The notes under the pieces are model-generated. The model made no database searches. It was not told the DNA's origin and saw only the letters and a list, made by a program, of their open reading frames with translations. The position numbers were made by a program, and so were the translations under genes. From Bryobacteraceae bacterium CoA2 C42 (GTDB lineage: Bacteria; Acidobacteriota; Terriglobia; Bryobacterales; Bryobacteraceae), in the NCBI GenBank assembly GCA_019931245.1, contig JAINDL010000007.1, positions 1-32,677 of the forward strand: 32,677 nt of DNA. Reading direction: 5' to 3'. Shown one piece after another: positions 1-30,717 of this stretch (position 1 is its first letter; each line of letters opens with the position of its first letter).

Positions 1-89
1 CTCGCCGTGCCGTGCCACGTGGCAATGGGTGTTTTCGACGTGGTCAACTTTATCCGAGCAGAAGTGGTCTTTTGGTGAGCGCCGAGGCA
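1..89. mobile_element. Possible IS21-family element end (partial)
   Basis: Two copies of GTGGTC followed by a T-rich stretch lie 24 nt apart, at 40-51 and 64-72, and a perfect 12-bp palindrome (TGCCACGTGGCA) lies at 13-24. Closely spaced repeats of this kind are typical of IS21-family termini. The segment stops exactly where homology to an IS6 transposase begins (about 88-90) and ends in CA, as IS21 ends do. No istA or istB coding sequence is visible because the window edge cuts the element. The family assignment is from memory of such ends and is uncertain. Confidence 0.35.
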
Positions 90-252
90 GAATGGTCGTC
101 TGTGCCAGACTGATGCCGCGTTCGCTCATCATGCTGACCAAATCCCGGTAGCTCAGTTTGAAACTCAGGTACCACCGTACGCACAACACGACAACCTCCT
201 TGTCGAAATGGCGACCGGCGACCAGCTCTTCGACCGAAACAAATCGGGACAT
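88..252 (-). pseudogene. IS6-family transposase, N-terminal fragment
   Basis: Reading the minus strand from an ATG at 252 gives about 55 residues of a typical IS6-family DDE transposase N-terminus: GRHFDKEVVVLCVRWYL, then KLSYRDLVSMMSERGISL, then the TTIL that normally precedes the RWV-type segment. From position 87 leftwards the reading frame stays open to the window edge but the residues (PRRSPKDHF and on) no longer resemble the family. The DDE catalytic domain is therefore missing, so the fragment cannot encode an active transposase. The matching terminal inverted repeat lies just upstream. The most economical reading is that another element inserted into, or recombined with, the IS6 copy. 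Confidence 0.8.
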
Positions 253-274
253 TCCCCCATCTTCGCCCATCCCG

Positions 275-355: not shown

Positions 356-949
356 ATGTTGCGCGGTGCCCTGTTGCTGCTTTTCCTGCCAGCGCTGTTC
401 TGTGCGGAAACAAAAGACGTTACGGTCGTCATGGATTTCGCCGAAGGCTTTTCGCCCCAAGCTCTGCAGGAGATGCAGGCTGAGGCTGGTCGCATCGTCC
501 GCAAAGCCGGCGTCAAACTGGCCTTTCTTCATCGGAACGAAGCCGCGCAGGACTCTTACAGCGAACTGGTCGTCTTCAAAATGTCGGGTCGCTGTGAAAT
601 GGACTCCTTTCCGGCCTTGCTCGACGAACGGGGTCCGCTCGCCTTCACCCTCACCACCGAGGGCCGCATTCTTCCCTTCGGCGAACTGAAGTGCGACCGC
701 CTCCGGGAGTCGATCAAAACCGCCATGGTGGGTTCGGACTTCAACAAAGGAAATCAATTGTTGGGCCGCGCCATGGGCCGTGTCCTCGCGCACGAGTTGT
801 ATCACATGCTGGCGCGCACCAAGGGCCACGGTAAAGGCGGCGTCGCCCGGGACGCGCTCTCGGCGCGTCAGTTAATCGCCGAGAATCTCGAACTTGGCGA
901 CCACGATTGCGCTTTCCTGCGCTCCGCTTCGCAAAAAAACTTCCTCTAA
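356..949 (+). CDS. Secreted HExxH-motif protein, putative metalloprotease
   Basis: This 197-residue protein begins with a short cleavable-looking signal peptide (residues 1-17, ending LFCA). Its notable feature is HELYH at residues 146-150, the HExxH zinc-binding motif of metallopeptidases, in a predicted helix (LGRAMGRVLAHELYHML). H158 lies seven residues after H150, a spacing that is not the metzincin HExxHxxGxxH, so the third zinc ligand is uncertain. Residues 20-110 do not match a family I can name. The ATG at 356 is supported by GAGTGAGG eight bases upstream. The gene sits next to IS debris and 225 bp before an Oar-like receptor, with no sign of sharing its transcript. The enzymatic role is inferred from the motif alone; a non-catalytic zinc protein is possible. 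Confidence 0.7.
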   Translation: MLRGALLLLFLPALFCAETKDVTVVMDFAEGFSPQALQEMQAEAGRIVRKAGVKLAFLHRNEAAQDSYSELVVFKMSGRCEMDSFPALLDERGPLAFTLTTEGRILPFGELKCDRLRESIKTAMVGSDFNKGNQLLGRAMGRVLAHELYHMLARTKGHGKGGVARDALSARQLIAENLELGDHDCAFLRSASQKNFL

Positions 950-1174
950 AATCGATCCATATTTTTCGAACTTTCCTCTCGACGCCGGGCCAACTTTACG
1001 CTACCGTATTGAGTAAGCCTTTTGGGGTCCTGGATGTTTGACCCCATCGCTCTCCAGCGTTTCCTTCTTCGAGCCGCGCGCATGGCTCTTCTTGCCTGGT
1101 AGCTGCAAAACTCCACTCTCCGTTCAGAGTCCAACCAGCACCCGAGTGCTGACGCTTAACCTAAGGATCTTCGA
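950..1174. other. Intergenic leader of first Oar-like receptor
   Basis: No coding sequence is supported here. An inverted repeat GGGGTC (1024-1029) / GACCCC (1040-1045) with a 10-nt loop could fold in a transcript, but no T-run follows it. A good ribosome-binding site (AAGGA within 1162-1168) lies just before the ATG at 1175. No convincing -35/-10 pair was found. Confidence 0.35.
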
Positions 1175-4100
1175 ATGGTTACTCGTTGGACCGCTTTTGC
1201 GTTGTTTTTCCTCTTTTTCTCCCTGTCGGCGAACGCGCAATCTATTCAGGGGGGCCTCCGCGGTCTTGTCACCGACAGCGGCGGCGGCGTGATTGCCAAT
1301 GTCAAAGTTTCCTTGACCGATCAGGCTACCAACCTGACCCGCAGCACCCTCACCAGTGCCACCGGCGATTACGTCTTCAACGCCGTTGTTCCCGCCGTTT
1401 ACGTGATTACCGCCGAATCCCCCGGCTTCAAAAAATATGACCGGCAAGGCGTCACGGTCGGCACCCAGGAGTTCCTCACCGCCGACATCAAAATGGAAGT
1501 CGGCAATGTCACCGAATCGGTGATGGTCACCGAAGAGGTCCCCGTTATCGAAACGGCGAACGCCTCGGCCGGCCAACTCATCGACCGCCAAAAATTGATC
1601 GATCTGCCTAATCTCGGCCGGAATCCTTTCATGATGGCCAAGATTGCGCAGAATGTGGTGGCCGTGGGCAATCCCCGGTTCAACCGGATGCAGGATCAGT
1701 CGGGATCCTCCCAGATTTCGCTTGCCGGCGGGCCCGTCCGCGGCAATAACTACCTGCTCGACGGCATCCCCATCACCGACTCGGTCAACCGCGCCGTCGT
1801 CATCCCTTCGCTCGAAGCGGTACAGGAAGTGAAGGTCCAGGCCAACACCTACGACGCCGAAATGGGCCGCACTGGCGGGGGCATGTTCAACACCTTCATG
1901 AAGAGCGGCGCCAACTCGCTGCAAGGTTCCGCCTTCGGGTACCTGCGCGAAACCGAGTGGCTCGCCAACAACTTCTTCAACAATCGCGCCGGCCGCGCCC
2001 GGCCCAACCAGCCTTTCCGCAACTACGGCGGCTCCATCGGCGGCCCCGTCTCCCTGCCCAAGCTGTATAACGGCAAGGACAAAACCTTTTTCTGGATCGC
2101 CGGCGAGGCCTACCGCCAAACCTCCTCCACCACCGGCGAGTTCGCCGTACCCACAGCCACCGAGATTGGCGGCGACTTTTCCCGCTCCTTCCGCAGCGGC
2201 TCCTCCGGCGCCCTACAGCTGATCTTCGATCCGTTGACCACCCAGCCCGACGGCACCCGGCAAACCTTCCCGGGCAATCTCATCCCCGCCAACCGGCTCA
2301 ATCCCATCGGTTTGGCCATCGCCCGCACCTACCCCGCCCCCACCCGCGAACGCGCCGGATTCGGCCAGAACAACTACACAGCGGCCTCCAACCAGTACGA
2401 CCGCGCCGACCAGACCACCTGGAAGGTCGACCACCAGGTCAATTCCTGGTGGCGCGCCACCGGCTCCTATCTCCACTACGGCTCCATCGAGCCGGGCGAA
2501 AACTGGTTCGGCACCATCTCCTCGCCCGCTCAGTGGACGCTCGGCCGCAAGGTGGACGCCACGGCGCTCAATAGCCTCTTCACCCCCAGCCCCACTACCG
2601 TCATCACGGTCCGCTACGGCTTCAACCGGTTCCCCAATCTGAGCTCCCAGCGCTCGGCCGGCTTCAACCTCGCCTCGCTCGGCTTCCCGGCCAACTATCT
2701 CTCTCAAGTCGACTCCCGCACCTTCCCCAACATCGGCATGCAGAACTTCTCGGCCCTCGGCGCCAACAGCAACAGCCAGCAGGTGTTTCATTCAAAGAAC
2801 CTCCTCGGATCGGTAGCGCAATTCGTCGGACGCCACAGCTTCAAGATGGGGGCTGACTACCGCCGGCTGCACATCGACGGCGTCGACCTCGGCAACGCGT
2901 CGGGAGCCTTCAATTTCAACGACCAGTTCACCCGCGCAAACCCCCTGGCGGCCACGGCCGGCACCGGTTCCGATCTCGCCTCTCTCCTGCTCGGCGTGCC
3001 GGCGAGCGGGGACTTCCTCAAGGCGACCAAAATGTTTCAGTACGTCGATTATTGGGCGGTCTACTTTCACGATGACTTCCGCATCAACGCCAAGCTGACC
3101 CTCAACTACGGCATTCGCTACGAGTACGAAACCGGACTGCAGGCCACCAACAACACCCTCATCACCGGCTTCAGCCGCACCATCGCCAACCCCATCGCCG
3201 TCACCGCACCCGTCGCCGGCTTCACCCCCAAAGGCGGCCTGCTCTACGCCGGCCAGGACGGCGGCCGCACCCAGACCGGTAACCTGAACCGCAACAAGTT
3301 CAGCCCCCGCGTCGGCATGGCCTACCAGCTCAACGCGAAAACTACGCTGCGGGCCGGTTACGGTATCTTCTGGGCGCCCATTCCCTATGGCTTCCAGAAC
3401 ACCCTGGGCTACTCGCAAACCACGGCCATGCTCGCCACCGCTGACGGCGGCTTCACCCCGGCCGGCTCGCTTTCGAATCCCTTCCCGGCCGGCATCCTGA
3501 CGCCCGTCGGCAACGCGAACGGCCTGCAGGCCGGCATCGGCCAGGCCATCGGCTTCATCAGCCAGGACCATCGCGCCCCCAATATCCACCAGTTCTCCTT
3601 CGATATCCAGCGCCAACTCCCCTGGGGCCTCGGCCTCGCCGCGGGTTACGTCGGCAGCCGCTCCTACAACCTCGTCCTCGGCGCCGGCGGCGTCAACATC
3701 AACCAGCTCGATCCCACCAGCTTCGCGCTCGGCACCGCCGCTCTCAACGCTTCGGTCTCCAACCCCTACTACCGCGCCGGCGGCCCCGGCTTCATCGGCG
3801 CCCGGACCATGACCCGGGAGCAGTTCCTCCGCCCCTTCAATCAGTTCTCGAACGTCACGCTCAACAACAGCGACTATAACCGCGCCGTCTACGACTCCTT
3901 CGTCAGCAAGATTCAAAAGCGCATGTCCGCCGGCTTCAGCTTCCTCGGCTCCTGGACCTGGTCCCGGAACCTGGACGCCTCCGTCGGCGGCGCGGGCACC
4001 TTCTTCAACGGCCTGGGCGCCATCCAGAACGCCTACGACCTCAACGCCGAGTACTCGCTATCCAGCGTCCACTCCCCCCACCGCTTCAGCAGCGCCTTCA

Positions 4101-4627
4101 CCTACGAACTCCCGTTTGGCAAAGGCAAACCCTTCGCCCAGGGCCGCCTGGCCGACCTTACCATCGGCGGCTGGTCCGTCAACGCCGTAACCACCTACCA
4201 GACCGGCTATCCGCTGGCCATCGCCCAGGCTGCCAACAACAACGGCCCCTTCGGCGGCGCCGGCCAGCGTCCCAACGCCACCGGTCTCAGCCCCCTCACC
4301 GCCGGCAGCCTCATGGACCGCATCGACGGATTTATCAACCGCGCCGCCTTTACCGAGGTCGGCAAATACCAGTTCGGCAATCTCTCCCGCACCATCACCA
4401 TGCGAGGGCCGGGCATCTCGGAATGGAACCTGTCGCTGTTCAAAACCTTCTCGCTCGGCGAAAAGTTCAAGGCGCAGTTCCGTGCCGAGGCCCTCAACGC
4501 CTTCAACACCCCGCAGTTCCGGGCGCCCAACCTCGCTTTCGGCGTTAGCAACACAAATTTCGGCAAAATCACCGAGCAAGCCAACTTCGCCCGCATGATG
4601 CAACTGGGTGTCCGCTTCTTCTTTTAA
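1175..4627 (+). CDS. Oar-like TonB-dependent outer-membrane receptor
   Basis: This is a 1150-residue outer-membrane protein. Residues 1-21 form a signal peptide (ending SANA). Residues 25-105 are a carboxypeptidase-regulatory-like beta domain (GLVTDSGGGVIANVKVSLTD, then SATGDYVF). A plug-like region follows (LPNLGRNPF, LLDGIPITD, then VQEVKVQANTYDAEMGRTGGG), and the rest is a long beta barrel with the aromatic C-terminus QLGVRFFF expected for BAM-dependent insertion. Such Oar/SusC-like receptors are greatly expanded in Acidobacteriota, and their ligands are rarely known. No TonB box is obvious. AAGGA seven bases upstream supports the start. A Tat-leader aminotransferase follows after 90 bp on the same strand. 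Family placement is firm; the substrate is unknown. Confidence 0.92.
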   Translation: MVTRWTAFALFFLFFSLSANAQSIQGGLRGLVTDSGGGVIANVKVSLTDQATNLTRSTLTSATGDYVFNAVVPAVYVITAESPGFKKYDRQGVTVGTQEFLTADIKMEVGNVTESVMVTEEVPVIETANASAGQLIDRQKLIDLPNLGRNPFMMAKIAQNVVAVGNPRFNRMQDQSGSSQISLAGGPVRGNNYLLDGIPITDSVNRAVVIPSLEAVQEVKVQANTYDAEMGRTGGGMFNTFMKSGANSLQGSAFGYLRETEWLANNFFNNRAGRARPNQPFRNYGGSIGGPVSLPKLYNGKDKTFFWIAGEAYRQTSSTTGEFAVPTATEIGGDFSRSFRSGSSGALQLIFDPLTTQPDGTRQTFPGNLIPANRLNPIGLAIARTYPAPTRERAGFGQNNYTAASNQYDRADQTTWKVDHQVNSWWRATGSYLHYGSIEPGENWFGTISSPAQWTLGRKVDATALNSLFTPSPTTVITVRYGFNRFPNLSSQRSAGFNLASLGFPANYLSQVDSRTFPNIGMQNFSALGANSNSQQVFHSKNLLGSVAQFVGRHSFKMGADYRRLHIDGVDLGNASGAFNFNDQFTRANPLAATAGTGSDLASLLLGVPASGDFLKATKMFQYVDYWAVYFHDDFRINAKLTLNYGIRYEYETGLQATNNTLITGFSRTIANPIAVTAPVAGFTPKGGLLYAGQDGGRTQTGNLNRNKFSPRVGMAYQLNAKTTLRAGYGIFWAPIPYGFQNTLGYSQTTAMLATADGGFTPAGSLSNPFPAGILTPVGNANGLQAGIGQAIGFISQDHRAPNIHQFSFDIQRQLPWGLGLAAGYVGSRSYNLVLGAGGVNINQLDPTSFALGTAALNASVSNPYYRAGGPGFIGARTMTREQFLRPFNQFSNVTLNNSDYNRAVYDSFVSKIQKRMSAGFSFLGSWTWSRNLDASVGGAGTFFNGLGAIQNAYDLNAEYSLSSVHSPHRFSSAFTYELPFGKGKPFAQGRLADLTIGGWSVNAVTTYQTGYPLAIAQAANNNGPFGGAGQRPNATGLSPLTAGSLMDRIDGFINRAAFTEVGKYQFGNLSRTITMRGPGISEWNLSLFKTFSLGEKFKAQFRAEALNAFNTPQFRAPNLAFGVSNTNFGKITEQANFARMMQLGVRFFF

Positions 4628-4647
4628 ACCAGTTCTCGCAAATTCTG

Positions 4648-4676
4648 GCCGGTTCCGATTCCCAAACAGAACCGGC
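4648..4676 (+). other. Stem-loop between receptor and aminotransferase genes
   Basis: GCCGGTTC (4648-4655) and GAACCGGC (4669-4676) are perfect 8-bp arms around a 13-nt loop, 20 nt after the receptor stop codon. No T-run follows, so it is not a standard intrinsic terminator. It could be a transcript-processing or attenuating hairpin between the two genes. Confidence 0.4.
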
Positions 4677-4717
4677 TCACTCTCAAGTTCAATCCCTAGC
4701 TAGGAGTTTCACTCATC

Positions 4718-5854
4718 ATGTCAGTTTTCACCTCTGCAGGACTCAAGAAAGAGTTCTCCCGTCGCGCCCTGGCTAAAGGCGGCGCCCTGCTGGCCGCCGG
4801 CGCCGCGCTGCCGTTCTACAACGAACCAGCCCTCGCCCAGCTTTCAATGATCGCCAACCTGGACCCGAACGCGGTTAAAATCAACGCGAACGAGAATCCG
4901 CTCGGCCCCTGCAATGAGGCGGCCGAGGCCATGTACGGCGTCATCAAAAAAGGCGGCCGTTACATGTACGAGGAGACCTTCAACTTCGCGAAAACCCTCG
5001 CCGAACAGGAAGGCCTGAAGCCCAACTACGTCATGCCCTTCCCGGGCTCCTCCGACCCCCTGCACCGCTCCGTGCTCGCCTTCACCTCGCCCGAAAAGCC
5101 CTTCGTCATGGGCGACCCCGGTTACGAAGCCGGCCAGCGCGCCGCGCAGTTCATCGGCACGAAGGTGATTCGCGTTCCTCTCAAGGCCGACCATTCGCAC
5201 GACGTGAAAGCCATGGTGGCCGCCAGCCCGAACGCCGGCCTGATCTACATTTGCAACCCCAACAACCCCACCGGCACGCTCACCAAGCGCTCCGATATTG
5301 AATGGGTCATTGCCAACAAGCCGGCCGGGTCCATCCTCGTCCTCGACGAAGCCTATATCCACCTCACCAACGAAGCCTTCGGCTCCGAATTCGTCGCCAA
5401 AGACAAGGACGTGATCATCCTGCGGACCTTCTCGAAGCTCTACGGCATGGCCGGCCTGCGCGCCGGCGCCGCTATCGGCCGTCCGGACCTCATCGCCAAG
5501 CTCTCCAGCTACGGTGCCGGCGCCCTGCCGCTCACCGGCATGGTCGGCGCCCACGCTTCGCTCAAGGTTCCCACCCTCGTGCCGCAGCGCCGGAAGCTGA
5601 TTGGCGATACCCGCGAAGACGTCTTCTCGTTCCTGTCCAAGCACAACGCGAAGTTCGTTCCCTCCGTGTCCAACAAGTTCATGATGGAACTCAACGGCAT
5701 GCCCGGCGGCGACATCGTGAAGGCCTTCGTTAAGGAGAAAATCTACATCGGCCGCGTCTGGCCCGCCTGGCCGAAGCACGCCCGCGTGTCGATCGGCACC
5801 CCGGAAGAGATGGCCAAGTTCAAAGCGGCTTATCTGAAAATCGCGAATGCCTAA
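4718..5854 (+). CDS. Tat-exported HisC-like PLP aminotransferase
   Basis: This 378-residue protein is a fold-type I pyridoxal-phosphate enzyme closest in look to histidinol-phosphate aminotransferase. Visible motifs are NANENPLGP (56-64), NPNNPTG (180-186), DEAY (210-213) and the PLP lysine K240 in RTFSKLYGMAGLRAG. The N-terminus is unusual: SRRALAK (14-20) is a twin-arginine motif followed by a hydrophobic stretch and a likely cleavage site at ALA-Q (40/41). This predicts export of the folded, cofactor-loaded enzyme to the periplasm. A cytosolic histidine-biosynthesis role is therefore unlikely, and its amino donor and acceptor are unknown. AGGAG at 4702-4706 supports the start. Its last codons overlap the SulP gene by 8 bp, implying translational coupling. 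An Oar-like receptor lies upstream. Confidence 0.85.
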   Translation: MSVFTSAGLKKEFSRRALAKGGALLAAGAALPFYNEPALAQLSMIANLDPNAVKINANENPLGPCNEAAEAMYGVIKKGGRYMYEETFNFAKTLAEQEGLKPNYVMPFPGSSDPLHRSVLAFTSPEKPFVMGDPGYEAGQRAAQFIGTKVIRVPLKADHSHDVKAMVAASPNAGLIYICNPNNPTGTLTKRSDIEWVIANKPAGSILVLDEAYIHLTNEAFGSEFVAKDKDVIILRTFSKLYGMAGLRAGAAIGRPDLIAKLSSYGAGALPLTGMVGAHASLKVPTLVPQRRKLIGDTREDVFSFLSKHNAKFVPSVSNKFMMELNGMPGGDIVKAFVKEKIYIGRVWPAWPKHARVSIGTPEEMAKFKAAYLKIANA

Positions 5855-7130
5855 GACCCAACCGGCTTCCTGGCAATCCTGGTCGCCGCTGCAGTACAGT
5901 CCACGCGAACTCGCCGGTGATCTCACCGGCGGGCTCGTGGCGGCCCTCATCGCCATGCCCTACGGTTTGGCTATGGCGGCGCTCATGGGCCTTCCCCCCA
6001 CCATGGGGCTGATGACCTCCGTCATCACCGCTCCCATCTGCGCGCTGCTCGGCCGCAATCCCGTTCTCATTGGTGGCACCTCCACGGTGACTGTTCCCTT
6101 CATCGCCGCGGCCGTACAGGCCCAAGGCCCGGCCGGCGCCGCCAAGATCACTATCGTGGCCGGCATCTTCCTGATGATCTTCTGCGTTCTCCGCTGGGGA
6201 AGCTACATCACCAAGGTGCCGCTGCCGGTCGTCTCCGGCTTCTCGTGCGGCATCGGCGCGATGATGATCATCTCCCAACTCCGCACCCTCTTCGGTCTCC
6301 GGATCGCCGCCGGCGGCTCCATGCTCGACCAACTCTGGAACGCGATGGTGAATCTGCCGTCGTTCAACTGGCAGGTTACCGCCCTCGCCTTCACCACCAT
6401 CTTCGGCGCCGCCCTCTGCGGCCGCGTCCTGCCCAACGCCCCGGCGCCAATGCTGGGCATTCTGGCCGCTGTCGGCTGCGGCAGCCTCTTTGGCTGGCAC
6501 GACAAAGAAGTGGGCGCCCTCTCGCTGTCCCTGCCGCCGCTTGCTAAGTTTACCTGGTCGCCCGCTGATACGCTGCAACTCATCCCCTCCGCCCTCGGCC
6601 TGGCTATTGTCACGAGCGTCAACCTGCTCATCACCTCCCGCGTCGTCGAACACTTCCGCGGCCGCCATCAGCATCTCAAACGCTCCGATGCCGACCGCGA
6701 ACTCGGTGCCTACGGCATCGCCAATTTGACTACCGGGCTGTTCGGCGCCCCGTTCAGCGTCGGCATCCCGGCCCGCTCGCTCGCCAACGTCCGCTGCGGC
6801 GGTTCCACGCGCGTGTCCAACATTGTCCACGCCGGCTTCATTCTGCTCTTCCTGACGGCCGGCTCCCAACTCGTCGAACACATTCCCATCTCCGCCCTCG
6901 CCGGCATCACCGCCTGGATGGGCTACTGTCTGCTCGATTGGTCCACATGGTTCCGCCTGCCGCGCATGCGCCGCACCGACGCCGTGGCCTTCCTGCTCAC
7001 CGTCTCGAGCGTTCTGGTCGTCAACGCCGCCATCAGCGTCGCCCTCGGCTGCGGCGTCTACGCGGTCCGCTGGCTCTACGACCGGCTGACGCACAGCCCG
7101 GCCGCCCCGCACGCCGTAGTGCAGAGCTAA
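5847..7130 (+). CDS. SulP-family anion transporter without STAS domain
   Basis: This 427-residue inner-membrane transporter starts with the SulP hallmark region (SPRELAGDLTGGLVAALIAMPYGLAMAALMG, here residues 18-48) and has about 10-12 hydrophobic segments. SulP proteins exchange or import anions such as sulfate, bicarbonate or dicarboxylates; the substrate cannot be told from sequence. Most SulP proteins end in a cytoplasmic STAS domain; here the chain stops about 15 residues after the last membrane segment (VYAVRWLYDRLTHS), so STAS is absent rather than frameshifted away in the visible sequence. The ATG lies within the last 8 bp of the aminotransferase gene. Its stop codon overlaps the stop of the convergent tyrA. 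Co-transcription with the aminotransferase suggests a shared substrate, but that is inference. Confidence 0.88.
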   Translation: MPKTQPASWQSWSPLQYSPRELAGDLTGGLVAALIAMPYGLAMAALMGLPPTMGLMTSVITAPICALLGRNPVLIGGTSTVTVPFIAAAVQAQGPAGAAKITIVAGIFLMIFCVLRWGSYITKVPLPVVSGFSCGIGAMMIISQLRTLFGLRIAAGGSMLDQLWNAMVNLPSFNWQVTALAFTTIFGAALCGRVLPNAPAPMLGILAAVGCGSLFGWHDKEVGALSLSLPPLAKFTWSPADTLQLIPSALGLAIVTSVNLLITSRVVEHFRGRHQHLKRSDADRELGAYGIANLTTGLFGAPFSVGIPARSLANVRCGGSTRVSNIVHAGFILLFLTAGSQLVEHIPISALAGITAWMGYCLLDWSTWFRLPRMRRTDAVAFLLTVSSVLVVNAAISVALGCGVYAVRWLYDRLTHSPAAPHAVVQS

Positions 7131-7942
7131 CTCAGATTCACGCTGCGCACCAGCCGCCGCCGCAACTCCGCGCCCTCGGCAAACTGGCCCTCGTTCTCGC
7201 CGAGCGATGCGCGCATGTCCCGCAACCGATCAATCATCTCGCCGAGCGCCGTATCCACCGGCCCCCGGTTCGTCCACAAGATATCCCGCCAAATTTCGTA
7301 AGGGCTCTGCGCCAGGCGCGTCGTATCGATCAGCCCGGGGCCGCTCACCTGAATCTCATCCCCCGGCAGCGCCCGCGTCACCGTCCCGGCCAGCGCGGTC
7401 GCCACCAACTGCGTCAGGTGGCTCGTGTAGGCCACGGCGCGGTCGTGCTCCTCGGCGCCCAGAATCACCACGCGCGCCCCCATCTTTTCAATCCAGCCGC
7501 GCAGCCAGTGTTCGGCCGTCAGCACGTACGTCCGGCCGCGAAACAGCGCCGCGTCAGCGCCCCGCACCCCGCGCGTCTCCTTACCCGCCATCGGATGGCC
7601 CCCCACATAGCTCCCCGCCGGTAGATACTCCCGCATCGCGGCCACAATCTCCGACTTGGTACTGCCGGCGTCGGTCACCGTCGCCTGCGGACCCAGCATC
7701 CGGCCTAAGGCCGGCATCCCCTCAATTATCTTCAAAATCGGCTGCGCCAGGTAGATCAAATCCGCCGTCTGCGCCACCTCTTCGAGCGTGGCGCCGCGAT
7801 CCACCACCCCTAACTCCACCGCCTCGGCAATCGTCCGCTCGGAGCTTACCCCAAGCAGCGTTCCCGTAAAACCCGTGCGGCGCAGCGCCAGCGCAAACGA
7901 GCCGCCGATCAACCCCACGCCGCAGATGGCGACCCGCTGCAT
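7127..7942 (-). CDS. tyrA: Prephenate (or arogenate) dehydrogenase
   Basis: This 271-residue enzyme performs the NAD(P)-dependent oxidative decarboxylation that commits prephenate or arogenate to tyrosine. The N-terminal Rossmann motif GVGLIGGS is at residues 8-15, and the GGHPMAG and YTSHLTQL segments match the substrate and catalytic region of TyrA. I start at the ATG at 7942 because it places the Rossmann motif at the very N-terminus; an in-frame start at 7975 would add 11 arginine-rich residues lying inside the upstream gene. The start lies 4 nt after the DAHP synthase stop. It is the last gene of the aromatic operon, and its stop overlaps that of the convergent SulP gene. Whether it prefers prephenate or arogenate is not decided. 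Confidence 0.93.
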   Translation of the reverse strand: MQRVAICGVGLIGGSFALALRRTGFTGTLLGVSSERTIAEAVELGVVDRGATLEEVAQTADLIYLAQPILKIIEGMPALGRMLGPQATVTDAGSTKSEIVAAMREYLPAGSYVGGHPMAGKETRGVRGADAALFRGRTYVLTAEHWLRGWIEKMGARVVILGAEEHDRAVAYTSHLTQLVATALAGTVTRALPGDEIQVSGPGLIDTTRLAQSPYEIWRDILWTNRGPVDTALGEMIDRLRDMRASLGENEGQFAEGAELRRRLVRSVNLS

Positions 7943-7946
7943 TCGC

Positions 7947-8960
7947 CTAAAGGCTCCGGCCCACCGCCTGCGCAATGGCTCGCAACTGCACCATCAACTC
8001 GGCGAACTGCTCAGGAAACAGGCTCTGCGCCCCGTCGCTCAAGGCATGGTCCGGATCATGGTGCACCTCCATCAGCAGCACGTCCGCCCCCGCCGCCACC
8101 GCCGCCCGCGCCATGGGCGCCACCAGGTTCCGCTTGCCTACCCCGTGCGATGGATCCGCCGCCACCGGCAGATGCGTCAAGCCCTGCAGCACCGGAATCG
8201 CCGACACGTCAAACGTATTCCGCGTCGCGGTCTCAAAGGTCCGGATGCCCCGCTCGCACAGAATCACCTCGTAGTTGCCACCCATCATGATGTACTCGGC
8301 CGACAGCAGCAACTCTTCAATCGTCGCCGCAATGCCCCGCTTGAGCAGCACCGGCCGCCGGATGGTCCCGAGTTCCCGCAGCAGATTGAAGTTCTGCATG
8401 TTCCGCGCCCCCACCTGTAGAATGACCGAGTACTCGCTCAGCAGCCCGATCTGGCTCCGGTCCATCACCTCGCTTACCACGAACAATCCGTGCCGGTCTG
8501 CCGCTGCGCGGATCATCTTCAACCCCTCTTCGCCCAGGCCTTGAAAGCTGTACGGGCTCGAACGGGGCTTGAACGCGCCGCCCCGGATCCCCTTCGCCCC
8601 GGCCTTGGCGACGATCTCGGCCGAAATCTCAATCTGGTCGCGGTTCTCAATCGAGCACGGGCCCGCCATCACCACCACCTCTGGCCCGCCGATCCTCACG
8701 CCTCGCACGGTGATCTCCGTGCCGTTGGGCCTAAACCGCTTGTTCGCCAGCTTGTAGGGAGAGACGATCCGGTGGCACTCCTTCACCCCGTCCAACACTT
8801 CAAACTCCAACGGGTCGAAATCTTCCTGCGGCCCCACCCCGCCCAGCACGGTATGCGTCACCCCGGTGGACTTATGCACCGTAAAGCCCATCATCACCAG
8901 CTTCTCGATCACCCGCTCCACCTGCGTCTCGGTGGCGCCCTCCTGCATTACGACCAGCAT
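7947..8960 (-). CDS. aroF: 3-deoxy-7-phosphoheptulonate (DAHP) synthase
   Basis: This 337-residue enzyme condenses phosphoenolpyruvate and erythrose 4-phosphate, the first step of the shikimate pathway. It is of the Ibeta type with an N-terminal ferredoxin-like regulatory domain (residues 1-70, VERVIEKLVMMGFTVHKSTG), followed by a TIM barrel with AGPCSIENRDQ, FKPRSSPYSFQG, LLKRG, CERGIRTFE and ADPSHGVGKR. These are the metal and PEP-binding motifs of the family. The N-terminal domain is the usual site of tyrosine or prephenate feedback in relatives. Its start codon shares one base with the chorismate mutase stop (TGATG), so translation is coupled. That neighbour suggests the mutase may bind to or help regulate this enzyme, as reported for some Ibeta enzymes. 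Confidence 0.95.
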   Translation of the reverse strand: MLVVMQEGATETQVERVIEKLVMMGFTVHKSTGVTHTVLGGVGPQEDFDPLEFEVLDGVKECHRIVSPYKLANKRFRPNGTEITVRGVRIGGPEVVVMAGPCSIENRDQIEISAEIVAKAGAKGIRGGAFKPRSSPYSFQGLGEEGLKMIRAAADRHGLFVVSEVMDRSQIGLLSEYSVILQVGARNMQNFNLLRELGTIRRPVLLKRGIAATIEELLLSAEYIMMGGNYEVILCERGIRTFETATRNTFDVSAIPVLQGLTHLPVAADPSHGVGKRNLVAPMARAAVAAGADVLLMEVHHDPDHALSDGAQSLFPEQFAELMVQLRAIAQAVGRSL

Positions 8961-9259
8961 CAGTTCTCCTTGCTCAACATCCGGTTGCGCTGAATGGTCC
9001 GCATCTCGTCCATGATCCGCTCAAAGATCCGGACGGCGGAATCGGCCGGCAGCGGGCCCCCGTTCGCCGCCGCCACGTTCTCGAGCACGGCCCGCTCGCG
9101 GTTTGGCTCATAAACATCGAACGCCGCGCTCTGCTTGATCTGCCCGATCCGCTCCACCACCCGCACCCGCTCGTTGATCAGCGCCACCAGGCGGCGGTCC
9201 ACCTCGTCGATCTCTGCCCGGCAGACGGCCAGCGCCGCCCGCGCCTCGTCCGGTGTCAT
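8960..9259 (-). CDS. Chorismate mutase, AroQ class
   Basis: This 99-residue, all-helical protein matches free-standing AroQ chorismate mutases, which convert chorismate to prephenate in the cytoplasm. Key segments are CRAEIDEVDRRLVALINERV (residues 13-32, first helix with the substrate-binding arginine), then the IGQIKQ lysine helix, EPNRERAVLE, and a C-terminal helix ending FERIMDEMRTIQRNRM. No dehydratase or ACT domain is fused, so a prephenate dehydratase must be encoded elsewhere. The ATG overlaps the trpA stop as ATGA, and its own stop overlaps the start of DAHP synthase. Placement between trpA and DAHP synthase puts the branch-point enzyme inside the operon. Confidence 0.92.
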   Translation of the reverse strand: MTPDEARAALAVCRAEIDEVDRRLVALINERVRVVERIGQIKQSAAFDVYEPNRERAVLENVAAANGGPLPADSAVRIFERIMDEMRTIQRNRMLSKEN

Positions 9260-10068
9260 GCCCGGCCCGCCCGGGCCCCGGCTTTCAACTCGCGCGTGAA
9301 GGCCTCCAGCCGGCTCTCCATTTCGAGCGAGCCCGCGCTCTCCTCAATAATCCGGACGAACGCGCTGCCCACCACCACGCCATCGGCAATCTTAGCTACC
9401 GCGGCCGCATCGGCCGCCTTGGCAATGCCAAAACCCACCGCCAGCGGCAGATCGGTCACCGTCCGCATCCGCTCCACCAACTCCGCCGCCGAACCGGCCA
9501 ACTGATCGCGCACCCCGGTCACCCCCGTCCGCGAAACCAGGTAAACGAATCCCGACGAGTAAGCCGCCACCTGCTTCAATCGCTCCATCGGCGAGGTCGG
9601 CGCCGCCAGAAATACCGTATCGAGCCCCGCCGCGCGCACCACCGGCACGAACTTGCCGGCCTCTTCCACGCTGGCGTCCGTCATCAGGATGCCGTCAATG
9701 CCGGCCGCCGCGGCGTCCTGCGCCAGCCGATCAAACCCGTAGCGCAGCAACGGGTTCAGGTAGGAGAACAGCAGAATCGGAATCTGGCTCCGCTCCCGGA
9801 TCTTCCGCGCCACCTCGAGCACCCCGGCCAGGCTCGCGCCATGGGCCAGCGCCCGCTCGGTCGCCCGCATGATCACCGGTCCATCGGCAATGGGATCGGA
9901 AAACGGCACGCCCAACTCAATCAGGTCGGCCCCGCCCAACTCCATGGCCTCGACCAACGAAACCGTGCGCTCGAGCGACGGATCGCCCGCCGTGATGTAG
10001 GCGATCAGCGCCGGCTGGTTCTCCGCGCGGCACCGCGCAAATAGTTGACTAATTCGACTCGGGTTCAT
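9256..10068 (-). CDS. trpA: Tryptophan synthase alpha subunit
   Basis: This 270-residue TIM-barrel subunit cleaves indole-3-glycerol phosphate to indole and glyceraldehyde 3-phosphate and passes indole to TrpB. The catalytic region [16 protein letters not shown] contains the family's Glu and Asp, and [13 protein letters not shown] and [13 protein letters not shown] form the phosphate-binding loops. Length is normal for the family. The gene overlaps the end of trpB by 20 bp and the start of the chorismate mutase by 4 bp. No residue that I would expect in an active alpha subunit appears to be missing. Confidence 0.96.
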
Positions 10069-11260
10069 CCAGTTCTTTCAGGTTTTCGCGGTAGATATCG
10101 ATGTCTTTGTCTCCCCGGCCGGAGAGGTTCACGATGAAGATCTCGCCCTTGGCCGCCGGAGCCCGGCGCAGCGCTTCGGCCACCCCGTGCGCGCTTTCGA
10201 GCGCCGGAATCAGGCCCTCGGTCCGCGCCAGCGTCTGCGCGGCCTCCAAGGCATCGGCGTCGGAGCAGGGCACGTATTCGGCCCGGCCCTGATCGGCCAG
10301 AAACGCATGCTCCGGGCCAATCATCGCGTAGTCCAGCCCCGCGCTCACCGAATGGGTCAGCGAAATCTGCCCGTCGCCATTCTGCAGCACGTAGCTGAAG
10401 CAGCCCTGCAGCACGCCCGGGCTTCCGCCGGCAAAGCGCGCGGCGTGTTCGCCCGGCGCGAGCGACCGGCCCCCGGCCTCCACCCCCACCAGCTTCACCG
10501 CCGTATCCGGCACAAACGCATGGAAGATGCCGATCGCGTTCGACCCGCCGCCCACGCAGGCGATCACTTGATCCGGCAGCCGGCCCTCTTTGGCCAGAAT
10601 CTGCTCACGCGCTTCGGCGCCCATGCAGCTGTGAAAGTCGCGAACCATCAGCGGATAAGGGTGCGACCCGAGCGCCGACCCGAGCAGATAATGCGTGTCG
10701 CCCACATTGGTCACCCAGTCCCGCATCGCCTCGCTGATGGCGTCTTTGAGCGTCCGGCTCCCGCTGGTCACGCCCGTCACCGTCGCCCCCAGCAGGCGCA
10801 TCCGGAAGACGTTCAGCCGCTGCCGCCGCATGTCCTCCTCGCCCATGTAGATCACGCACTCCATGCCGAAAAGCGCACAAACCGTCGCCGTCGCCACCCC
10901 GTGCTGCCCCGCGCCGGTCTCGGCGATGATCCGTTTTTTGCCCATGCGCCGCGCCAGCAGAATCTGCCCCAGCGCGTTGTTGATCTTGTGCGCCCCCGTA
11001 TGCAGCAGATCTTCCCGTTTGATGTAGATCTTGGCGCCGCCCAGCGTCTGGCTCAGGCGCTTGGCGTAGTAAAGCGGGGTCGGCCGCCCGGCATAGTCCT
11101 TCAGCAGGTCGGCCAGTTCGGCTTGAAACGTCGGGTCCCGCCGGGCCGCATAGTAGGCCTGCTCGAGCTCTTCGAGCGGGTTCATCAGCACCTCGGGGAC
11201 GAAACGTCCGCCGTAAGGTCCGAAGTGTCCGCCGCTATCGGGTTGAGAGGTAGTAATCAT
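10049..11260 (-). CDS. trpB: Tryptophan synthase beta subunit
   Basis: This 403-residue PLP enzyme joins indole and serine to make tryptophan. The PLP lysine is in [13 protein letters not shown], the catalytic glutamate region is [14 protein letters not shown], and the phosphate loop is [21 protein letters not shown] is typical of the TrpB1 type that pairs with TrpA. I start at the ATG at 11260, which overlaps the trpF stop as ATGA and gives the usual N-terminus ([16 protein letters not shown]). The reading frame is open upstream to 11500, but those 80 residues are a shadow of the trpF repeat in another frame and should not be annotated. Confidence 0.96.
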
Positions 11261-11880
11261 GCTGTTAATGCCAATTCGATGAATCGCGCCACCTTGGCGT
11301 GGTCTTTTATCCCGGGCCGCAACTCGAGCCGCGAACAGGCGTCCACGCCCCACGGCCGGGCGGTCGCAATCGCCTGCTGCACATTGTCCGGCCCCAGGCC
11401 CCCGGCCAGCAGAATCTTCCGTTCCGCGCCCTTGGCGCGGGACCAATCCGCCGCGCCCTTGGCGCGGGTCCAATCCGCCGCGCCCTTGGCGCGGGTCCAA
11501 TCAAACGTATGGCCGCTGCCCCCGTAAAGCTCCCCCGGCGCATCGAGCAGAAAGGCCTCGGCCGGAAACGTCAACCGGTCCATCGAAAAATCGCTCGTCA
11601 CGCGAAACGCCTTCCACACCGGAAAACCCGCCGGCGCCGCCTGCTCATCGCCGTGCAGTTGAATCACGTCCAGGCGCGCCTGCCGCGCTATTTCCACCGC
11701 GCGCGGCTCGTTCACGAATACCCCCACGCGCAGCACCCCGGCCGGGGTGACAATCGCGGCTGCCGACTCCGGATCCACGTAACGCGGACTCGGCCGGTAA
11801 AAGTTGAACCCGAGCGCGCCGGCCCCGGCGGCCGCATCGGCATCGGCCTGATTCGTGATGCCGCACACCTTGACCATCAT
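11257..11880 (-). CDS. trpF: Phosphoribosylanthranilate isomerase with internal repeat
   Basis: This 207-residue TIM-barrel enzyme carries out the Amadori rearrangement in tryptophan synthesis. The catalytic cysteine is C6 in VKVCGIT; other family segments are [33 protein letters not shown] and [12 protein letters not shown]. Between the last two, residues 127-153 are three copies of a nine-residue unit ([27 protein letters not shown]). Normal TrpF proteins have one short segment here, so about two units are extra. The repeat is a multiple of three and keeps the frame. It falls after strand 5, in a loop/helix region on the edge of the barrel, so activity may survive. The start overlaps the trpC stop by 4 bp and the stop overlaps the trpB start by 4 bp. 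Confidence 0.93.
11426..11506. repeat. 27-bp tandem repeat (3 units) inside trpF
   Basis: Three units start at 11426, 11453 and 11480, each 27 bp. Units one and two differ by one base within the unit (GGGACC versus GGGTCC), and unit three diverges only in its last four bases. Each unit contains an imperfect-loop hairpin core, CCGCGCC / GGCGCGG around CTT in units two and three. The near identity of copies points to recent expansion by slippage. Confidence 0.9.
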
Positions 11881-12659
11881 GCCCGTAACGCCCGCAGCGC
11901 CGCCGCCGGGTCCGGCGACAGCATCAAATGTTCACCCACCAAAAACGCCTGGTAACCCGCCCCCCGCAGCCGCTGCACATCGGCCGCCGAGTGGATCCCG
12001 CTTTCGCTCACCCGCACTACCCCCGCCGGCATCCGCTCCGCCAGCCGGACCGATGTCTCGAGCGATACCCGGAAGGTGTGCAGATCCCGGTTGTTCACCC
12101 CCAGAATCTCGGCGCCGGAATCGACCGCCCGCGTCAACTCCGCTTCGTCATGCACCTCGACGAGCGCCGCCAAGCCCAGCGAAGCGGCCACTTCGCGGAA
12201 GCGCCGCAACTCGTTCACCGACAGGATCGCCGCAATCAGCAGAATGGCATCCGCGCCGTAGGCCGCCGCCTCCACAATGTGCCGCTCATCAATCGTGAAA
12301 TCCTTCCGCAGCGCCGGCAGGCCAACCGCGCCGCGCGCCGCCTGCAGGTCGGCGAAGGAGCCATAGAAGAACTGCCGGTCCGTCAACACCGACAACGCCG
12401 CCGCACCCCCCGCCTCGTAGCTCGTCGCCAACGCTGCCGGGTCGAACGACTCGGCAAAAATGCCTTTGCTCGGTGATCCTTTCTTGATCTCCGCAATCAC
12501 CGCCGGCGTCGAACCCTCAAGCGCCGACCGGAAATCGCGCCGCGTGGCCATGCCGTCTGCTGCTCGCTCGGCCAACCGGGGCTCCGCAGTGCGCTCCCTC
12601 AGTTCACGCCGCTTGACTTCGACGATTCGGGCGAGAATATCGGGAACGGTCTGCTGCAT
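11877..12659 (-). CDS. trpC: Indole-3-glycerol-phosphate synthase
   Basis: This 260-residue TIM-barrel enzyme closes the indole ring from carboxyphenylaminodeoxyribulose phosphate. The motifs AEIKKGSPSKG (catalytic Lys region), ALSVLTD, LRKDFTID, LLIAAIL, ALVEVHDE, GVNNRDLHTF and VSESGI occur in family order. The length is standard and it is not fused to trpF. It starts 21 nt after the stop of the PPIase gene and may be transcribed with it; a -10-like TAGGAT at 12675-12680 on the minus strand could instead provide a local start. It is the first of seven densely overlapping aromatic genes. Confidence 0.96.
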   Translation of the reverse strand: MQQTVPDILARIVEVKRRELRERTAEPRLAERAADGMATRRDFRSALEGSTPAVIAEIKKGSPSKGIFAESFDPAALATSYEAGGAAALSVLTDRQFFYGSFADLQAARGAVGLPALRKDFTIDERHIVEAAAYGADAILLIAAILSVNELRRFREVAASLGLAALVEVHDEAELTRAVDSGAEILGVNNRDLHTFRVSLETSVRLAERMPAGVVRVSESGIHSAADVQRLRGAGYQAFLVGEHLMLSPDPAAALRALRA

Positions 12660-27525: not shown

Positions 27526-30500
27526 ATGCGCGCTTTTCTGGCCTGCTTTCTTTCTCTCGCCCCCGCGGCCCTCCCCCAAACCTTCAACAACGGCACCCTC
27601 CTCGGCACCGTCACCGATCCCTCCGGCGCCTCCGTCCCCGGCGCCTCCGTCCGCGTCTCCCGCGACAATCCCGCCTTCCGCCGCGAAACCCTCACCGACG
27701 CCTCCGGCAACTACCTCCTCCCCCAGGTCCCCCCCGGCGCCTACACCCTCACCTTCGAAAAAACAGGCTTCCAGAAAACCGAAACCAACAACGTCGATGT
27801 CAGCGCCGCCCAAACCGTCCGCGTCGACTCCCAACTCACCGTCGGCTCCGTCTCCGACACCGTCCGCGTCGAAACCCGCGCCGCCCAGGTCGACACCGCC
27901 TCGGCCAACATCGGCTCCACCGTCTACGGCACCCAGGTCCAGGAACTCGCCCTCAACACCCGCAGCTTCACCCAACTGATGACCCTCCAGCCCGGCGTCA
28001 GCTCCATGCAGGCCCAGCAGCCCGGCTTCGGCTCCAACACCGGCGTCCCCTTCTCCTTCGGCGGCAGCCAGACCAGCGCCAACAATTGGACCCTCGACGG
28101 CGGCCGCAACGTCGACACCTTCAACGGCAACAACCTCGCCATGGTCAACCTCGACGCCATCGCCGAAGTCCGCATCGAACGCAACGCCTACACCTCCGAC
28201 TACGGCCGCAACGGCGGCGCCCAGATCAACGTCGTCACCAAGTCCGGCACCAACGACCTCCACGGCACCCTCTTCGAGTTCTTCCGCAACGACAAACTCG
28301 ACGCCCGCAACTTCTTCGCCGCCCGCCGCCCCAAGAACCGCTATAACAACTTCGGCGGCACCCTCGGCGGCGCCATCAAACGCGACAAACTCTTCTTCTT
28401 CCTCTCAAACGAATACCGCCGCATCTGGCAGACCACCGGCGCCCGCACCAGCATCGTCCCCACCGACGCCCAAATCGCCGGCAACTTCTCCGCCACCCGC
28501 GACATCCGCGACCCCCTCACCGCCCAACTCTTCCCCAACCGCCAGATCCCCGCCTCCCGCCTCGACCCCAACGCCCTCGCCCTCATCCGCACCTACTACC
28601 AGCGCCCCAACTTCCAGCAGGGCGCCCTCAACTTCACCTCCGCCGAACCCGACGGCACCAACTACCGCTCCGGCCTCGCCCGCCTCGACTGGAACGCCAA
28701 GGAAAACTTCACCGTCTTCGCCCGCTATAACCTCGACTCCACCCGCCTCATCAGCCCCTACGGCCTCTTCGCCGGCAACCCCATGCAGAACGTCGCCGAC
28801 AGCGAACAATCCCACGTCATCCGCGGCGCCAACCTCTCCACCACCTGGATTGTCAACTCCAACATGGTCAACCAGCTCACGGGCTCCTTCTACGGCGGCT
28901 CCCTCGCCATCTCGACGTCGGCCAACGCCGCCCGCGCCCGCGAAGCCGCCTTCCGCGTCCCCCGCGTCTTCAATACCCAGGTCGCCGCCGCCGGCCTCAT
29001 CCCCTCCATCTCCCTGTCCCAGGGCTACGCCGGCATCGATATCCGCTGGCCCCAGAACATCACCTCCTATACTTGGGAAATCATCGACAACTTCTCCTGG
29101 AACAAAGGCCGCCACAGCATCAAGTTCGGCGGCGCCATCGACAAAGAAAACAAGTCCCAGAATCAGAGCGTCCCCAACAACAACGGCACCTTCACCTTCA
29201 ACAGCCAGCCCACCGGCGATGCCCTCGCCGACCTGCTCACCGGCAACGCCTTCCAGTACACCGAAAACTCCAATCACGTCTTCGGCCGCTCCCGCTGGGA
29301 AAACTGGTCGCTCTACATCCAGGACCAGTGGCGCGCCACCAACCGCCTCACCCTCACCTACGGCGTCCGCTACGAAATCTACGAACCCGAAAAGGACGAC
29401 GACGGCAACTACTCCTTCTTCCTCCCCTCCCGCTTCAGCCGCGCCGCCGCCGCTACCGTCCTGCCCGCGAACGGCCAAATCGTCACCGGCACCCAAAACT
29501 ACGATAACGGCGTCGTCGTCGTCGGCAAATCCGACTCCCCCTTCGGCAACGCCATGACCAACACGGTCTACAACACCTTCGCCCCCCGCGGCGGCTTCTC
29601 CCTCGGCCTCGGCAAAAACAACTCCACCGTCCTCCGCGGCGGCTTCGGCATGTTCCACGACCGCTGGGCCCAGCTCGTCTCCGGCGCCCGCAACAACTGG
29701 CCCTTCAACCAAAGCGCCTCCATCTTCAGCACCGCTTTCTCGAACCCCGCCCAAGGCGAACGCCGCTTCTTCCCCATCGCCCTCACCAACTACGCCTCGC
29801 CCTGGAACATCCCCTATTACATGAAGTGGTCCCTCGGCCTCCAGCACGCCCTCCCCGGCGACATCCTCCTCGACGCCAGCTACGTTGGCTCCCGCGGCGT
29901 CGCCCTCACCCGCACCCGCGACATCAACCAACCCGTCGCCTCCGCCGATGTCGCCGCCGGCCGCCTCAACGTCAACGCCGCCCGCCCCTTCCCCGGCTTC
30001 GCCGCCATCTCCACCAACGAAACCACCGGCCAGTCCGTCTATCACAGCCTCCAAACCTCGGCCACCCGCCGCTTCGCCCGCGGCATCTCCCTCCAGGGCT
30101 CCTACACCTTCTCCCGCTCCATCGACAACGTCGCCACCCCCCTCAACTCCTACGCCGCCAACGGCATGGAACGCGGCCTGTCCGGCTTCGATCGCACCCA
30201 CGTCCTCGTCGTCAGCTACGTCTACGAACTCCCCCTCCTCCGCAACAGCAAAGGCGCCCTGAAGCAGATCTTCGGCGGCTGGCAGGTCTCCGGTATCAGC
30301 CGCTTTGAATCCGGTACGCCGTTCTCCATCACCGTCCCCGGCGACCGCGCCGGCACCGGCACCGGCGGTCAGCGCCCCGATGTCTCCGGCTCCATCAACC
30401 TCGACCGTACCCTCCAGCGCTGGTTCAGCGGCGCCTTCGCCGCCCCCGCCCTCGGCACGTTCGGCAACCTCGGCCGCAACGTCGTCCGCGCCCCCGGCTT

Positions 30501-30717
30501 CGCCAACTGGGACGTCTCCTTCAGCAAAAAGGCCGAACTCTTCCGCACCGCCAACGACCACCCCGTCCAACTCCAGTTCCGCGGCGAGTTCTTCAACCTC
30601 TTCAACCACACCCAATGGGCCGGTGTCTCCGCCGCCGTCGGCGCCGCCAACTTCGGCCAGATCACCTCCACTCGCGACCCCCGCCTCACCCAGCTCGGCC
30701 TCCGGCTGATATTCTGA
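27526..30717 (+). CDS. Oar-like TonB-dependent outer-membrane receptor
   Basis: This 1063-residue protein has a signal peptide (1-18, ending AALPQ), a regulatory-like domain (GTVTDPSGASVPGASVRVSR, then DASGNYLLPQVPPGAYTL), a plug region (LNTRSFTQLMTLQPGV, WTLDGGRNVDTF, IAEVRIERNAYTSDYGRNGG, NVVTKSGTNDLHG) and a barrel ending QLGLRLIF. It follows the MscS gene by 59 bp and is followed by a Tat-leader enolase-superfamily gene whose ATG shares one base with its TGA stop, so that pair is almost surely co-translated. The coupling makes the enzyme's substrate a candidate ligand for this receptor, which is inference. Confidence 0.92.
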   Translation: MRAFLACFLSLAPAALPQTFNNGTLLGTVTDPSGASVPGASVRVSRDNPAFRRETLTDASGNYLLPQVPPGAYTLTFEKTGFQKTETNNVDVSAAQTVRVDSQLTVGSVSDTVRVETRAAQVDTASANIGSTVYGTQVQELALNTRSFTQLMTLQPGVSSMQAQQPGFGSNTGVPFSFGGSQTSANNWTLDGGRNVDTFNGNNLAMVNLDAIAEVRIERNAYTSDYGRNGGAQINVVTKSGTNDLHGTLFEFFRNDKLDARNFFAARRPKNRYNNFGGTLGGAIKRDKLFFFLSNEYRRIWQTTGARTSIVPTDAQIAGNFSATRDIRDPLTAQLFPNRQIPASRLDPNALALIRTYYQRPNFQQGALNFTSAEPDGTNYRSGLARLDWNAKENFTVFARYNLDSTRLISPYGLFAGNPMQNVADSEQSHVIRGANLSTTWIVNSNMVNQLTGSFYGGSLAISTSANAARAREAAFRVPRVFNTQVAAAGLIPSISLSQGYAGIDIRWPQNITSYTWEIIDNFSWNKGRHSIKFGGAIDKENKSQNQSVPNNNGTFTFNSQPTGDALADLLTGNAFQYTENSNHVFGRSRWENWSLYIQDQWRATNRLTLTYGVRYEIYEPEKDDDGNYSFFLPSRFSRAAAATVLPANGQIVTGTQNYDNGVVVVGKSDSPFGNAMTNTVYNTFAPRGGFSLGLGKNNSTVLRGGFGMFHDRWAQLVSGARNNWPFNQSASIFSTAFSNPAQGERRFFPIALTNYASPWNIPYYMKWSLGLQHALPGDILLDASYVGSRGVALTRTRDINQPVASADVAAGRLNVNAARPFPGFAAISTNETTGQSVYHSLQTSATRRFARGISLQGSYTFSRSIDNVATPLNSYAANGMERGLSGFDRTHVLVVSYVYELPLLRNSKGALKQIFGGWQVSGISRFESGTPFSITVPGDRAGTGTGGQRPDVSGSINLDRTLQRWFSGAFAAPALGTFGNLGRNVVRAPGFANWDVSFSKKAELFRTANDHPVQLQFRGEFFNLFNHTQWAGVSAAVGAANFGQITSTRDPRLTQLGLRLIF

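Follow-up and report, generated by a model that had tools for sequence, protein, structure and literature searches.

Does a large outer-membrane receptor of the Oar type pass its substrate to the exported enzyme encoded just downstream? This question is raised by a stretch of 32,677 nucleotides (hereafter the window), which corresponds to positions 1 to 32,677 of contig JAINDL010000007.1 from the acidobacterium Bryobacteraceae bacterium CoA2 C42 (GenBank assembly GCA_019931245.1). The original prediction, made from the letters of the window, had pointed to two Oar-like TonB-dependent receptor genes, each followed on the same strand by a gene for an enzyme with a twin-arginine translocation (Tat) leader, and had proposed that they form one repeated module. 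Both pairs are indeed present, as judged from Pfam matches and from the twin-arginine leaders of the two enzymes. Chance is an unlikely explanation for these leaders, since the regular expression used for Tat leaders fires on only 8 of 566 internal pseudo-N-termini taken as controls. The first pair, made of a receptor and an aminotransferase, belongs to a conserved neighbourhood (positions 356-7130) whose parts are very probably linked in function, as far as sequence comparison can tell. The idea of a receptor and Tat enzyme module holds for this pair, with its dedicated receptor clade, invariant leader and conserved linkage; it does not hold as a general rule. The neighbourhood, in which a receptor, an exported enzyme, a transporter and a protease-like protein are encoded together, points to an undescribed uptake-and-conversion pathway in soil acidobacteria. 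Its genes are the following:

356..949, + strand: w1, a small secreted zincin-like protein of 197 residues, with HExxHx7H at residues 146-158 (about nt 791-829)
1175..4627, + strand: Oar-like TonB-dependent receptor of the aminotransferase-linked clade, 1150 residues; PF25183 (OMP_b-brl_4) 654.4 bits and PF13620 60.4 bits
4718..5854, + strand: predicted Tat-exported pyridoxal 5'-phosphate (PLP) aminotransferase of the NF006580 subfamily, 378 residues; twin arginine at residues 15-16 (about nt 4760-4765)
5847..7130, + strand: SulP-family permease of 427 residues; PF00916 188.8 bits; 8-nt overlap with the aminotransferase gene

Conservation of the aminotransferase locus

The genomes of one family were surveyed (61 genomes, 60 genera). 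Orthologues of the aminotransferase, defined by at least 51% identity, or at least 58% for partial sequences, are found in 28 of them, and some match with an E-value of up to 1e-60 is found in 43. SulP orthologues occur in 23 genomes and, wherever both genes were counted, SulP is a same-strand neighbour of the aminotransferase (22/22). The subfamily of the window receptor is represented by 25 copies in 20 genomes; 16 copies lie beside the aminotransferase, including one that adjoins an aminotransferase truncated at a contig end. For SulP, co-occurrence with the aminotransferase has a Fisher p of about 3e-10, and for the receptor clade one of about 2e-5, both uncorrected for phylogeny.

In a scan of named genomes, the best 80 aminotransferase loci were taken from a larger number, and the gene was called in 78. 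Within three genes of it, the receptor clade is found in 32 loci, SulP in 26 and w1 in 11; receptors of other clades alone are found in 7 loci, and none of these partners in 29. Collapsing at 85% identity leaves 65 loci, 25 with the receptor clade, 21 with SulP and 9 with w1. Eleven linked arrangements can be distinguished, including some in which the receptor comes before, comes after, follows SulP or is divergent. Outside the receptor, SulP and w1, gene order is scrambled, and clustering of the neighbours within six genes in the 78 loci revealed no further family recurring in more than five loci. Relatives sharing 94-99% identity are acidobacteria assembled from metagenomes; labels among the next-closest ones are in many cases Bryobacterales, Bryobacteraceae, Solibacter or Acidobacteriia, and in a few cases those of other phyla. 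Linkage that outlasts rearrangement is the strongest sign that the pair-1 locus acts as a working unit.

Phylogeny separates the receptors of these loci from the others. In a FastTree tree of 88 receptors, all 15 aminotransferase-linked ones, including that of the window, form a single clade with a support of 1.0. Members of this clade are about 50-59% identical to the window receptor across genera and 90% within the genus; the best other receptor from the genome of the window in this set is 34% identical. The tree comprised the receptors collected to that point and left out a second copy of the subfamily in the same genome, which is 55% identical and unlinked to an aminotransferase.

Several observations weigh against a single functional unit. 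None of the three partners lies within three genes of the aminotransferase in 32 of the 65 collapsed loci, and 9 of the 25 receptor-clade copies, one of them in the genome of the window, are unlinked, so that the parts of the module can function separately. Only a minority of loci have w1 linked to the module, and SulP fails the cut-off of the sulP model TIGR00815 (170.9 vs 380.45 bits). Synteny among related genomes also partly reflects shared ancestry. Finally, no sign of common regulation was found: Rfam gives no match in the window and only two tRNAs across seven related loci, no 19-mer of the window comes within 3 mismatches of the Fur-type consensus, and there is no convincing shared upstream word.

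Predicted roles of the four proteins

The aminotransferase is of class I/II, and its leader comprises an SRRALAK motif, a hydrophobic stretch and a cleavage site between ALA and Q, this site being read by eye. With TatC encoded in the genome (203.9 bits), the twin arginine, hydrophobic stretch and cleavage site make the enzyme a predicted Tat substrate. It passes the cut-off of the NF006580/PRK09105 subfamily, whose model includes the leader (454 vs 444 bits). It fails that of the PtaA equivalog NF051461 (353.5 vs 500 bits), still the closest named equivalog, and that of the histidinol-phosphate transaminase HisC, TIGR01141 (189.1 vs 276.55 bits). Both NF006580 and NF051461 are matched by all 17 aligned orthologues, in which the leader residues R15, R16, P32, E36, A40 and Q41 are invariant. 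As called, 73 of the 78 aminotransferases from named genomes have S/TRR within their first 75 residues; three of the other five have NRR, and two have extended starts with the leader at or past the end of the segment viewed. The cleaved part of the leader (window 4718-4840) shows unusually high conservation, and its c-region contains an invariant Glu (LPFYNE...AQ).

The receptor is predicted to be an Oar-like TonB-dependent receptor from its PF25183 barrel and its N-terminal PF13620 domain. Its structural model is weak (predicted local distance difference test, pLDDT, 63), and the Foldseek matches of this model are TonB-dependent transporters, including YddB, FusA, FpvA and PirA. In SulP, the PF00916 transporter domain passes its cut-off (188.8 vs 23.2 bits), and no STAS domain is matched among the Pfam results. 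The assignment of w1 is less direct, as no Pfam family reaches its cut-off. The residues H146, E147, H150, H158, C80 and C113 show no variation in alignments of 10 and of 12 relatives. A model of w1 (pLDDT 80) has metzincins as its top Foldseek matches, with a probability of 1.0, a TM-score of about 0.5 and a marginal best E-value of 1.1e-3. The metzincin motif is HExxHxxGxxH, which w1 fails, having HExxHx7H instead.

From these assignments, a mechanism combining import through the receptor, transamination in the periplasm and anion transport by SulP can be put together, to which we would give slightly less than even chances. The receptor would take an amino-bearing substrate across the outer membrane. 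This substrate would probably be peptide-like, because a zincin belongs to the locus, and w1 may trim it. The aminotransferase, exported through Tat already folded with PLP as reported for PtaA, would then convert the free amine to a 2-oxo group in the periplasm. Finally, SulP would move an anion through the inner membrane, bringing in the 2-oxo product or sending out an amino-acceptor acid. The presence of SulP fits such a scheme, since transamination in the periplasm requires both a supply of amino acceptor and a way out for the product, and an adjacent anion permease could meet both needs. That the receptor hands its substrate to the periplasmic enzyme is plausible.

A more specific version, in which the receptor clade feeds a pre-folded PLP enzyme, SulP exchanges the 2-oxo product for the amino acceptor and the substrate may be an organosulfur compound, is put forward tentatively and is the less likely one. 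The organosulfur lead rests on one unlinked receptor locus of another genome (L316, G034:C12, 8304-17790), where a receptor of this clade precedes genes for a TauD-family dioxygenase, a major facilitator superfamily (MFS) transporter, a rhodanese, an SrpI-like encapsulin shell protein and a class-V aminotransferase. This is possibly a sulfur-starvation neighbourhood; an organosulfur substrate is suggested by these neighbours and by the membership of SulP in a sulfate-permease family.

To our knowledge, no substrate is known for any Oar-like receptor of these acidobacteria. Because one receptor clade is here associated with a particular enzyme of the periplasm, a permease of the inner membrane and a protease-like protein, the substrate of this clade becomes testable. 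PtaA-related aminotransferases also gain a conserved genomic context outside pseudomonads. If true, import followed by transamination would represent nutrient processing via transamination outside the inner membrane.

Known systems and alternative readings

The original prediction knew of no described system of this form. However, the Fus and YddB/PqqL systems, which associate a TonB-dependent receptor with a periplasmic protease (described in the available text of PMC6793856), and the PtaA system (available text of PMC6206403) are described forms of it. Loci combining a receptor with a periplasmic enzyme are therefore already known, and what appears to be new is this combination in this phylum: in openly licensed literature, considered through titles and the openings of abstracts, a receptor, a Tat aminotransferase and SulP were not found together in acidobacteria. 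The Fus and YddB/PqqL systems resemble the pair-1 locus in that a TonB-dependent receptor is encoded with a periplasmic or secreted enzyme, and FusA and YddB are among the matches of the receptor model. However, their enzyme is an M16 protease, whereas the constant partner is here a PLP aminotransferase; moreover, w1 is of the HExxH type and not HxxEH, is without a Pfam match and is present in a minority of loci.

The comparison with PtaA, the periplasmic transaminase A of Pseudomonas, leads to the strongest alternative. According to the available text of PMC6206403, PtaA tailors the side chain of pyoverdine and is exported folded with PLP, and PtaA-related aminotransferases also occur in species making no pyoverdine. 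The window aminotransferase shares with PtaA the wider family, as indicated by the NF006580 and NF051461 matches of all 17 orthologues, and a Tat leader. The aminotransferase could thus tailor a secreted peptide-type metabolite, for instance a siderophore, during export, the receptor re-importing the loaded product. In favour of such a maturation role, PtaA is the closest named equivalog, the siderophore receptors FpvA and PirA are among the matches of the receptor model, and PtaA and the TonB-dependent receptor FpvA take part in one pathway (PMC6206403, available text). But the enzyme falls well below the PtaA cut-off, the neighbourhoods show no recurring family of biosynthesis genes, the window lacks a Fur-type site (within 3 mismatches of the consensus), and the role of SulP is left unexplained. 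We consider maturation unlikely.

The receptor could alternatively act outward. In Myxococcus xanthus, an Oar-type TonB-dependent barrel is functionally tied to a protease, Oar being needed to secrete PopC from the periplasm (PMC6434023, available text), and the protease-like gene w1 is present in the locus. However, PopC is secreted without a signal peptide, whereas the aminotransferase and w1 both have one, and Oar is not demonstrated to be the actual channel, nor is an aminotransferase or a SulP described, in the available part of PMC6434023. An extracellular aminotransferase would presumably be without a supply of amino acceptor, and the inner-membrane permease would again have no explanation. 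Export is accordingly improbable, and import followed by periplasmic transamination is preferred to both alternatives.

The second pair and the general rule

The other receptors of the window and the enzyme of the second pair are as follows:

27526..30717, + strand: Oar-like receptor of pair 2, from another clade, 1063 residues; PF25183 691.5 bits
30717..31823, + strand: enzyme of pair 2, enolase superfamily (MR/MLE), with a Tat leader, 368 residues; PF13378 110.8 bits
22361-25750, - strand: third Oar-like receptor, with a DNA polymerase IV gene coming next

In pair 2, the enzyme ATG at position 30717 overlaps the TGA of the receptor, which bears out the predicted TGATG overlap. The enzyme begins with MPMQRRLFLA, the twin arginine being at residues 5-6 (about nt 30729-30734). 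As had been noted, a Tat enzyme follows two of the three receptors; the third instead precedes a DNA polymerase IV gene, 453 bp further, which has no leader. In the sister genome G004, the DNA polymerase IV and pair-2 receptor genes are in the same order with no receptor between them (L161); the receptor at 22361-25750 thus looks like an insertion in one lineage or a loss in the other.

The proposal that pair 2 is a recurrence of the pair-1 module fails on orthologues. Within the genus (G004), the enzyme still has its receptor beside it. In the six other genera examined, none of the enolase orthologues (57-67% identity) has a receptor directly upstream; in two of them (L153, L155), receptor genes or fragments are found at a distance of several genes and an MFS transporter gene is directly downstream. 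Conversely, the pair-2 receptor has orthologues (62-64%) in three other genera, beside other genes and not that enzyme. One is flanked by a KDPG/KHG aldolase and by an MR/MLE protein other than that of pair 2 (L333, G043), and another stands beside an RraA-like aldolase (L331, G056), hinting at sugar-acid or 2-oxo-acid substrates for this receptor group. A second copy of the pair-1 module was therefore rejected, the pairing being confined to one genus: since pair-2 orthologues elsewhere stand apart, the two pairs are not copies of one module, and pair 2 appears to be a separate, lineage-restricted neighbourhood. The twin arginine is kept in five of the six other-genus enolase orthologues (read by eye) and is invariant in the 17 aminotransferases; homologues of both enzymes thus do carry leaders, contrary to what would have refuted the proposal. 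In a post hoc count, MR/MLE coding sequence is directly downstream of three receptors of the genome (in the window, at L040 and, as a broken set, at C100). At the last of these (G000:C100:8304-10006, L012), two convergent Oar-like receptors enclose the broken enolase-superfamily frames.

Are Oar-like receptors generally followed by Tat enzymes? The genome encodes at least 65 such receptors, and a first look at the 61 genomes of the family gave 27 to 397 candidates per genome. The surroundings of the receptors of the genome were compared with 20 stretches chosen away from them, which still contained three receptor-like genes, using a codon-model gene caller and the Tat regular expression in place of TatP or SignalP. 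A downstream neighbour was counted if on the same strand, at a gap of at most 150 bp, at least 100 residues long and not itself a receptor. From 71 receptor rows, 29 neighbours were counted; the other rows were excluded because they lay at a stretch end, because the neighbour was short, a receptor or on the opposite strand, or because the gap exceeded 150 bp. A Tat leader is found in 5 of these 29, as compared with 29/206 other genes of the same stretches (p = 0.58) and 13/165 genes of the other stretches (p = 0.16). Without the two pairs of the window, the count is 3/27 (p = 1.0 and 0.48, respectively); reading by eye adds one neighbour, L016_3. In a second genus, examination of 20 receptor ends yielded 11 neighbours of at least 100 residues that are on the same strand and are not receptors (4 within 150 bp), none of them with a Tat leader as called and one (L353) with its start moved. 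The expected enrichment of Tat enzymes downstream of receptors was therefore not found, with the small numbers and simple tools used, and the rule that Oar-like receptors generally precede Tat enzymes has to be abandoned. Exported proteins of any kind are weakly commoner after receptors (15/29 vs 70/206, p = 0.10; vs 52/165, p = 0.055), and Tat genes of at least 100 residues are more frequent in near-receptor stretches (50/419) than in away stretches (19/287; p = 0.02).

Because the genome has at least 65 receptors and abundant Tat leaders, two pairs in one window are unremarkable by themselves. Chance meeting of abundant Tat enzymes and receptors, with which these frequencies and the lack of a Tat excess agree, suits pair 2, conserved only within the genus, although receptor orthologues near sugar-acid or 2-oxo-acid type enzymes in two other genera mean that even this pair is maybe not pure chance; for pair 1 it is improbable, given the linkage in numerous genera, the receptor clade of its own and a gene order that varies.

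Other genes of the window were noted in passing. Genes for TyrA, DAHP synthase, TrpA, TrpB, TrpC and EPSP synthase lie beside the pair-1 module (7127-12659 and 18575-19834, - strand). A functional tie of this aromatic amino-acid block (TyrA/AroF/Trp) to SulP was considered and rejected, as the adjacency is confined to the same genus. Consecutive genes at 13623-17829 (+ strand) encode a C45-type proenzyme acyltransferase/hydrolase, a multihaem cytochrome with doubled CXXCH motifs and a secreted protein of 649 residues without a Pfam match. At positions 1-266 (- strand), the contig end cuts what seems, as read by eye, to be the start of an IS6-type transposase.

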